Origin: Arabidopsis thaliana
Taxonomy: Eukaryota > Streptophyta > Magnoliopsida > Brassicales > Brassicaceae
Direction: 5' to 3'
Length of the DNA stretch: 64,000 nucleotides
Assembly: GCF_000001735.4 (NCBI RefSeq)
Contig: NC_003074.8
Span: 1,550,101 to 1,614,100 of the forward strand
The position numbers were made by a program, and so were the translations under genes. Positions 56,387 through 57,930 of this stretch are shown piece after piece; the first letter of the stretch is position 1, and each line of letters opens with the position of its first letter. A model generated the notes under the pieces. It saw only the letters and a list, made by a program, of their open reading frames with translations. It was not told the origin of the DNA and made no database searches.

Positions 56387-57930
56387 TCAGCACTTGATCT
56401 CTTTCAAGCCGTAGGCCAAGTAGAGAAAAGTAGGATCAGTGGCTCCTTCTCTGTAGTAAGCAAACACTAAGCTCCCTTCTTCTCCTTCCATGCTCTCTCC
56501 CACGAAGCTGTCACATTCGTTGAAAATAATTCACCAATTAGACAAAATTAACTTCAAAAAAAAAATAGAAGAAAGAAGATAAAAGAGAAGAGCTTACAAT
56601 TGGAAGTCTTTGAGCTTTGACATCAAGAATTTGGTGGCACTCTCAATGTGTTTCTTGAACAGCTCTTGGTTTTCTGAGTCCAACTTAGGGCTTAGTTGCT
56701 TGATGTATCTTTTCATAAACATCACAAATTGTTTCTTGTCAAACGATGGTTGCTCCTGCCAGAACATCGCATATAAATACCCAAAAGTTAATCTCAAACT
56801 TGTCCCAAATTAGTTTGTTTCTTGCGCTCAAAGAAAAGAAGATTAAAAAGGTTTTTAAAGTTTACCTGAAGCCTAAACGTATCGATGATATCGACAACCT
56901 TCACAGCTTGATCATCGACTCCTTCGTCTTCACCCCCTTCCTCACCCGATGGATTCTGTTGGTGCAGGAATTAGCACCTCCGACAATACCAATTTAAACC
57001 AAGGAATAACATGAATAAAATCGAGAATTCGATTGAACCGGGGAATCCCGGTTAGCCTGTTAATGGGCCTAAGTCATGAGCTCGCCAGAAGATTTAGGTC
57101 GACAATCGAGATCGCCATAGGCGGCTTCTGAGGTCGTGTGAAGGGAAAACTTCCATTTAAAAGAGGGGAATCTCATGAAGAATGGAAGTAATGGAGATTT
57201 AGACCTAAGATAATTAGAAGTTTATCATATTTTGGTATGTTCGACCCATTGTATAAATAGGGGGGGGTCAAACTCCCCAAAGGATCATCTTTAACCTAAT
57301 ACAAGAGACTACGATTATAGAGCAAACCCTAGCTTTCTGTTCAAACAACTTTGTTCTTTCCCTTTGATTATTTGTGAGCTAAGAGAGGAGTGAATTTGTC
57401 TAAATCCCTTAGTACAAATTCATTGTTTGATTACAAAATCAACAGATTCGCACCTATGTCAAAATCCATAGCTCCTTTCACAACCCACTAATGAACACAA
57501 AAAAGAATAACAATGATACATCAATTTAAATTCAACCAGCTTTGATCGTAAGAAAAAAAAACTCAAAGCTTTATTTAAGAATAATACCTTTCCTTCAACT
57601 TCCCATAACATGCCATTCTCGATTTCCTTGTAAGGAAAGGAATCAGAGAGAAGCTCATCGCCTGTTTGATCAAAAAAGAGAGACAAACTTTAGCTTCTTA
57701 CACAAGCAATACATACATATCAATGTATGTTTTTCTTTTTGGGATAGATCATAGATAGATACAAAATCAGTATGTTAAGTGACGACGATGATTGAGGTTG
57801 AATAATTACAAGACACGAGTAAACTCCTAGAAAACGAAACGTTAACGCAAATCATGAAAACCAATATCGTAATTCACTACATGAACCAGAATCAGAATAT
57901 ACCTGTAAGAATATCCTGGTAGACCAACAT
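56387..57930 (-). CDS. TCTP2: Translationally controlled tumor protein homologue 2, exon split by a solo LTR
   Basis: Small conserved growth-related protein of the TCTP family. Exons that splice in frame to 156 aa: 57903-57930, 57588-57661, 56866-56955, 56598-56755, 56387-56507. Sequence: [26 protein letters not shown], then [65 protein letters not shown]. TCTPs are normally about 168 aa. The missing piece, [13 protein letters not shown], is still present at 57450-57487 behind a good acceptor (TAG at 57490-57488), but it is cut off from the rest of its exon by the LTR at 56957-57444. The third exon is instead entered through an acceptor (CAACAG) formed at the LTR-TSD junction, keeping the frame. 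The functional state of this shortened protein is uncertain. From memory At3g05540, once regarded as a pseudogene. Confidence 0.85.
56957..57444 (+). mobile_element. Solo LTR inserted in a TCTP2 exon
   Basis: 488-bp element that begins TGTTGGTGCAGG and ends AAAATCAACA, with TGTTG/CAACA terminal inverted repeats. It is flanked by an identical 5-bp target duplication GATTC at 56952-56956 and 57445-57449. It contains a TATAAATA box (57252-57259) followed by a G8 run, so U3-R-U5 runs on the plus strand, antisense to TCTP2. No gag-pol interior and no second LTR are present: a solo LTR left by recombination between two LTRs. Size and termini fit a Copia- or Gypsy-type LTR; the superfamily cannot be decided here. 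Confidence 0.92.
57252..57259 (+). promoter_or_regulatory. TATA box inside the solo LTR
   Basis: TATAAATA followed by eight G residues, positioned about 190 nt from the LTR 3' end as in an LTR promoter. It could drive antisense transcription through the 5' part of TCTP2. Confidence 0.55.

Follow-up and report, generated by a model that had tools for sequence, protein, structure and literature searches.

A solo LTR in an exon of Arabidopsis thaliana TCTP2 and a probable splice acceptor at its junction with the target duplication

The insertion of an LTR element into a coding exon raises the question of how the interrupted gene can still be read as a protein. In maize waxy, an LTR element in the gene alters splicing, an example of alternative splicing caused by retrotransposons. 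The TCTP2 gene of Arabidopsis thaliana poses this question in a compact form, as one of its exons is split by a solo LTR and a shortened protein has been described for it. Here we analysed the window that contains the gene (64,000 nucleotides, C3:1550101-1614100) and asked whether the end of the LTR itself supplies part of a splice site. We consider it highly probable that the LTR insertion made a CAG acceptor and that joining the donor at 57588 to 56955 yields a protein of 156 aa from which 13 codons have been left out.

The interrupted gene and the family of its LTR

TCTP2, the published designation of At3g05540, occupies the minus strand of the window and comprises five exons, the third of which is interrupted. 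On this strand, the coding part of exon 1 lies at 57903-57930, with the ATG at 57930, and exon 2 at 57588-57661, with the donor AAG/GTATTA after 57588. Exon 3, as read from the sequence, spans 56866-57487 as a whole, and in the gene model exon 4 lies at 56598-56755 and exon 5, with the stop codon, at 56387-56507. The interruption leaves a stranded half-exon 5' of the target duplication (57450-57487), which together with G 57449 makes up the 13 codons skipped by the splice from 57588 to 56955, and an exon 3 remainder (56866-56955) that begins AATCCATCG (NPS...). The original acceptor, TTCATTAG/TGG at 57487, is still intact. Elsewhere in the gene, the intron at 56756-56865 (minus strand) is present in TCTP2 and absent from TCTP1, and was either lost or gained by one of the duplicates; a tRNA-Glu gene lies at 51237-51309 on the minus strand of the same window.

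The earlier note on this DNA had claimed that a 488-bp solo LTR with GATTC duplications splits a TCTP2 coding exon, and direct reading confirms this for exon 3. The LTR runs from TGTTGG to CAACA on the plus strand (56957-57444). In gene-strand order, the sequence before the LTR is GACATAGGTGCGAATC, the LTR follows from 57444 down to 56957, starting with TGTTGATTTTG and ending with GAGGTGCTAATTCCTGCACCAACA, and the sequence after it is GAATCCATCGGG. The two copies of the 5-bp target duplication match perfectly, with GAATC on the gene strand (GATTC on the plus strand) on both sides: the exon-2-side copy is at 57445-57449 and the exon-3-side copy at 56952-56956 (both minus strand), and the first base of the latter, G 56956, provides the acceptor's G. 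The element has TG...CA ends and a short flanking target duplication and lacks an internal part, all features of a solo LTR, and this anatomy shows an insertion that was followed by reduction to a solo LTR. This is not a chance resemblance: the duplication is perfect, and the LTR stops on both sides where the copies of a repeat family stop.

This repeat family has at least 40 matches, the TCTP2 copy counted, across the 119.66-Mb, 7-contig genome. Among the 39 other matches, 19 were read as DNA, namely 18 near-complete copies and a partial one (L034) that was excluded both from the LTR-end counts and from the tree; two of the 18 are the ends of one element, so that the copies are not fully independent. 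The LTR end CACCAACA is present in 17 of the 18 near-complete sister copies, CTAAT occupies the corresponding position in 10 of the 18, and the last 24 bases are shared in full by nine. A script found perfect 5-bp duplications at five of these 18 copies, to which CCAGC (L024) and a GTAAT pair were added by eye. The GTAAT pair flanks a 10.6-kb relative with two LTRs at C2:3752539-3763193 (L020 and L023). When 10 of the 15 listed ORFs of this relative were submitted to Pfam, gag, RT_RNaseH_2, RVT_3 and rve were found in that order, in separate ORFs on one strand; five of the ten matched no Pfam family, one was DUF3287, and the model of the reverse transcriptase core domain had no match among the ten. 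Judged by this order in the relative, with gag and RNase H followed downstream by integrase, the source of the TCTP2 LTR is assigned to the Ty3/gypsy superfamily. The Tat lineage is characterised by an additional RNase H upstream of integrase and by an extended 3' region; with RVT_3 preceding rve and a length of 10.6 kb in the relative, the source family is perhaps Tat-like. The LTR appears to be antisense to TCTP2, because the domains of the relative are encoded on the other strand when its LTRs are read in the sense of the gene.

The junction acceptor and the reading frames that it permits

LTR elements generally end in CA, and at TCTP2 the duplicated target starts with G, so the junction is a CAG acceptor. 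On the gene strand it reads CCAACA/G and the exon restarts at 56955; the AG (56956-56957, minus strand) consists of A 56957, the last LTR base, and G 56956, the first duplicated base, which bears out the proposal that one base of the acceptor comes from the LTR and the other from the target. Position -3 of this acceptor is C. A branch-point-like CTAAT lies at 56970-56974 (minus strand), and its A at 56971, which lies 15 nt upstream of the acceptor G, may be the true branch point. No AG stands between CTAAT and the acceptor, the sole AG of the last 65 nt preceding CTAAT, and U makes up 0.38 of the 60 nt before the junction, the same fraction as in native intron 3. The pyrimidine tract is poorer, with 10 of 17 positions before the junction compared with 14 of 17 at the native acceptor 57487. 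On the -3 base, the CTAAT and the U content, the junction acceptor can be graded qualitatively as usable.

The sister copies indicate that CA, and in half of them CTAAT, was supplied by the LTR, so that the acceptor would have come largely ready-made in the LTR end. The idea that the intron was made in one step thus holds for the acceptor half, because the LTR end is shared across the family; it holds less well for the whole, as native acceptor 57487 is intact and is expected to be a possible competitor of the new one.

The splice from 57588 to 56955 removes the LTR and the stranded half-exon and keeps the frame. Computed translation confirms the predicted in-frame loss of 13 residues and the product of 156 aa. 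The pre-insertion protein had been put at about 168 aa; when the flanks are joined with a single copy of the duplication, the ORF of the empty site is intact and encodes 169 aa. If the LTR is retained after normal splicing of intron 2, translation stops after 52 codons. We enumerated 786 GT-AG pairs as single introns in the TCTP2 segment, and 41 of them keep an open frame as far as the native stop. For the native donor 57588, four acceptors keep the frame (156, 151, 137 and 126 aa); frame rescue is therefore neither rare nor unique to 56955. There are 144 open three-site combinations; six of them give 156 aa, one by joining 57454 to 56921. If an LTR that ends in CA and makes a 5-bp duplication were placed at each of the 462 sites in exons 2-5, the duplication would begin with G and the frame would be kept at 45 of them.

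These features suggest the following sequence of events. A Ty3/gypsy element would have entered exon 3 of TCTP2 in antisense orientation and later been reduced to a solo LTR; its CA end and the target G would have formed the CAG acceptor, with the LTR end also contributing the CTAAT. The donor at 57588 would then be joined to 56955, so that a single excision takes out the LTR along with the former intron 2 and the stranded half-exon, and 156 rather than 169 aa are made. Acceptor 57487 presumably still competes, and transcripts that use it and retain the LTR would meet the early stop.

Published transcripts and the thirteen residues

The published data on AtTCTP2 come largely from PMC4489097. 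The cloned ORF (KR261461) is 13 aa short of AtTCTP1; cloning required nested PCR and prolonged denaturation, and the cDNA clones comprised four of the short form, one of AtTCTP1 and none of the curated version that has the length of AtTCTP1. In addition, a 35S::genomic ORF-GFP construct of AtTCTP2 yields GFP. The cDNA and GFP data support the use of the junction acceptor with donor 57588, and with it the view of the earlier note that splicing turns the insertion into part of an intron. The printed 13-aa deletion would then be the loss caused by joining 57588 to 56955. Two other outcomes, a 126-aa product in which native sites are used to skip exon 3 and a 151-aa product from acceptor 56940, were rejected as sources of the printed isoform, as neither deletion is of 13 aa.

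The later curated TCTP2 record, which according to PMC4489097 has the length of AtTCTP1, counts against the 156-aa reading. A product of exactly that length, 168 aa, perhaps the curated version, would arise if the junction acceptor were used mainly with a GC donor: splicing from GGT/GCGAAT (last exon base 57452) to 56955 takes the LTR out almost exactly, at the cost of one codon. A GC donor in the duplication, paired with the same kind of acceptor, is also used in SV2 of CMT1 carrying Evelknievel (PMC6238269). However, the curated version was not represented among the cDNA clones of Toscano-Morales et al. (PMC4489097), and 168 aa can equally be reached through the GT-AG pair 57537 to 56940 and through two three-site combinations. 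The T at donor position -1, moreover, fits the usual consensus poorly. We regard main use of the GC donor as improbable.

The position of the missing residues within the protein bears on a second alternative, in which 57454 (TAG/GTGCGA) is joined to 56921, so that the half-exon is kept, 13 other residues are lost and the LTR junction goes unused. This splice is likewise in frame and likewise gives 156 aa, and the gap of AtTCTP2 has been placed in a flexible loop by both PMC4114181 and PMC4489097, two placements that count against the junction-splice reading. PMC7202613, by contrast, assigns the gap to the fifth beta strand, which we take to fit residues 35-47, the stretch lost by the splice from 57588. 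The joining of 57454 to 56921 also needs the fourth AG past the junction, inside coding sequence, with nearer AGs skipped, and we give it a slim chance. The claim that the 13 residues come from the core fold is accordingly not plainly borne out, as one paper names a beta strand and two the flexible loop.

Of the 168 residues aligned between TCTP1 and the joined TCTP2, 123 are the same, and 8 of the 13 stranded codons are identical to TCTP1, a score matched or undercut by 53 of the 156 sliding 13-codon windows; being TCTP1-like and no outlier among the windows, the half-exon looks like coding sequence that was live until recently. The TCTP profile (PF00838, cut-off 24.3 bits) is matched by the 156-aa form with 155.4 bits, by the 169-aa form with 187.4 and by TCTP1 with 194.2. 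A solved TCTP chain, 6izb_A (153 aa), which is probably a loop-deleted construct, matches the 156-aa form end to end in one stretch. Synonymous sites between the duplicates are saturated overall (pS 0.75), so TCTP1 and TCTP2 look like old duplicates; this comparison (L035 against the window) differs from the description in PMC4114181 of a copy that 'arose recently'.

Insertion age, expression and precedents

The end branch of the TCTP2 LTR measures 0.0093, or about 4.5 changes, in a tree built from 19 LTRs; its group of three is supported by 98/94, and the inner fork is weak (68/22). With five changes and a substitution rate of 7e-9, this suggests an insertion about 1.5 My ago (0.5-3.4). Lineage divergences of 0.03-0.06 apply to the A. 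lyrata split. Had the insertion preceded that split, 15-29 changes would be expected, and the probability of five or fewer is 0.004 to 4e-8, given neutrality, no gene conversion and those divergences. Compared with this expectation, the roughly 4.5 changes make it unlikely that the LTR is shared with A. lyrata.

The age matters for an account in which the loss of the 13 codons is older than the LTR and shared with A. lyrata, the element having hit sequence that was already skipped. The A. lyrata TCTP2 is said in PMC4489097 to carry the deletion too, a statement that counts against the LTR as its cause and that amounts to half of one refuting condition named in the earlier note. PMC4114181, from the same group, places the A. 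lyrata homologue at the equivalent position and states that the deletion occurs in no TCTP except that of Giardia, and the two papers thus conflict on this point. Against an older loss, both the native acceptor and the half-exon have been preserved in frame, with a TCTP1-like sequence, and the joined flanks have no AG directly before AAT, where the deletion made by the splice from 57588 to 56955 ends. We consider an older loss very unlikely and retain the LTR junction as the probable source of the deletion.

It is less easy to decide what the spliced product is worth to the plant. TCTP2 may be a dying gene, broken by the LTR, with RNA that is mostly unspliced or stop-bearing and silenced by siRNA, and with the short cDNA as a rare and functionless by-product; this is compatible with the use of the junction acceptor and is a serious possibility, if somewhat short of an even chance. 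AtTCTP2 mRNA is 2-4 orders of magnitude below that of AtTCTP1, and the gene falls within a hotspot of dsRNA, where small RNAs also occur (PMC4489097). As related in the same paper, Berkowitz 2008 obtained no AtTCTP2 mRNA by RT-PCR and described another T-DNA allele as wild-type looking, which counts against a functional short form. The short time since insertion cannot show constraint either: because only about 1.5 My have passed, an ORF of 156 aa that is still intact says little about function. On the other side, another T-DNA allele, SALK_045146, is reported to be lethal and to be complemented by 35S::AtTCTP2-GFP, a result of one group (PMC4489097).

The LTR may itself cause the low mRNA level. 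It carries TATAAATAG at 57252-57260 (plus strand), pointing antisense into TCTP2 exons 2 and 1 as a putative promoter; TATAAATAG is found in 19 of the 20 LTR rows, one of which is partial, and TATAAATA occurs in every row. An antisense LTR promoter at TATAAATAG could explain the dsRNA, the small RNAs and the scarcity of mRNA.

Activity of the short form has been reported in tobacco regeneration assays, in which the genomic AtTCTP2 ORF fused to GFP gave regeneration in 140 of 350 explants and AtTCTP1-GFP in 0 of 350 (PMC4489097). Removal of the 13 residues from AtTCTP1 raised regeneration from about 3 to 13%, and their addition to AtTCTP2 lowered it from about 35 to 16%; the swap also shifts localisation, and these are the data of one group (PMC4489097). 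The strings 'transpos' and 'retrotransposon' are absent from the main text of that paper, as 'transpos' and 'retro' are from the main texts of PMC4114181, PMC7202613, PMC4269120, PMC10420919 and PMC5605047. Of 20 papers that contain 'AtTCTP2', four also contain 'transpos', and judged by title and the opening of the abstract these deal with other subjects. A link between the LTR and TCTP2 was not found in the main texts of the mostly open-access papers searched.

The closest precedent is Evelknievel in exon 13 of CMT1 (Ler), which is spliced out in three ways (PMC6238269, which also relates the earlier work of Henikoff and Comai on this element). In variant SV2, which makes up 25% of all and 51 of the 83 sequenced slow-band clones, the acceptor joins an LTR A, called the penultimate base, to the initial G of the duplication GGCTG, and the donor is a GC in the upstream copy of the duplication. 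CMT1 thus shows that an LTR A and a duplication G can act as an acceptor in A. thaliana. At TCTP2, an AG is likewise formed across the LTR/duplication junction of an exonic LTR element, and in both genes the frame is restored, at CMT1 in one variant. The CMT1 case, however, involves a full element present in some accessions only, a GC donor and near-exact repair, whereas TCTP2 has a solo LTR, most likely employs the gene's own upstream GT donor and loses 13 codons. In A. thaliana, an ONSEN copy inserted into an exon (PMC12112155) is also removed as an intron, but it is a fresh, full-length copia insertion, for which two different genes are named. In introners (PMC9860276), too, the element can bring one splice site and the duplication the other, and codons can be gained or lost; unlike TCTP2, with its single LTR-element insertion and no precise new intron, they are many-copy introns, most of which are thought to have spread by DNA transposition. 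On this comparison, the splicing mechanism proposed for TCTP2 is one already known from CMT1, and TCTP2 would be a further case with an unusually visible protein consequence.

In summary, the end of the LTR and the G of the duplication are most likely the working splice signal of TCTP2, which would make this gene the second case in A. thaliana, after CMT1, in which an LTR end and a target G serve as a splice acceptor. The LTR gives a cause for the deletion that papers on plant TCTP hold to be the key difference between AtTCTP1 and AtTCTP2, and conclusions on the natural TCTP2 isoform should be drawn with the caution that they concern a transposon-altered allele. A simple rule is suggested, CA/G at LTR junctions, which is applicable across exonic insertions. 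More speculatively, and with odds that we place well below even, a CA-ending LTR that meets a target beginning with G may be a ready CAG acceptor that has rescued at least two A. thaliana genes disrupted by insertions into exons, CMT1 and TCTP2, and in TCTP2 has fixed a new form that, through the loss of 13 residues, is nuclear and active in regeneration; one transposon insertion would then have produced a gain of function.
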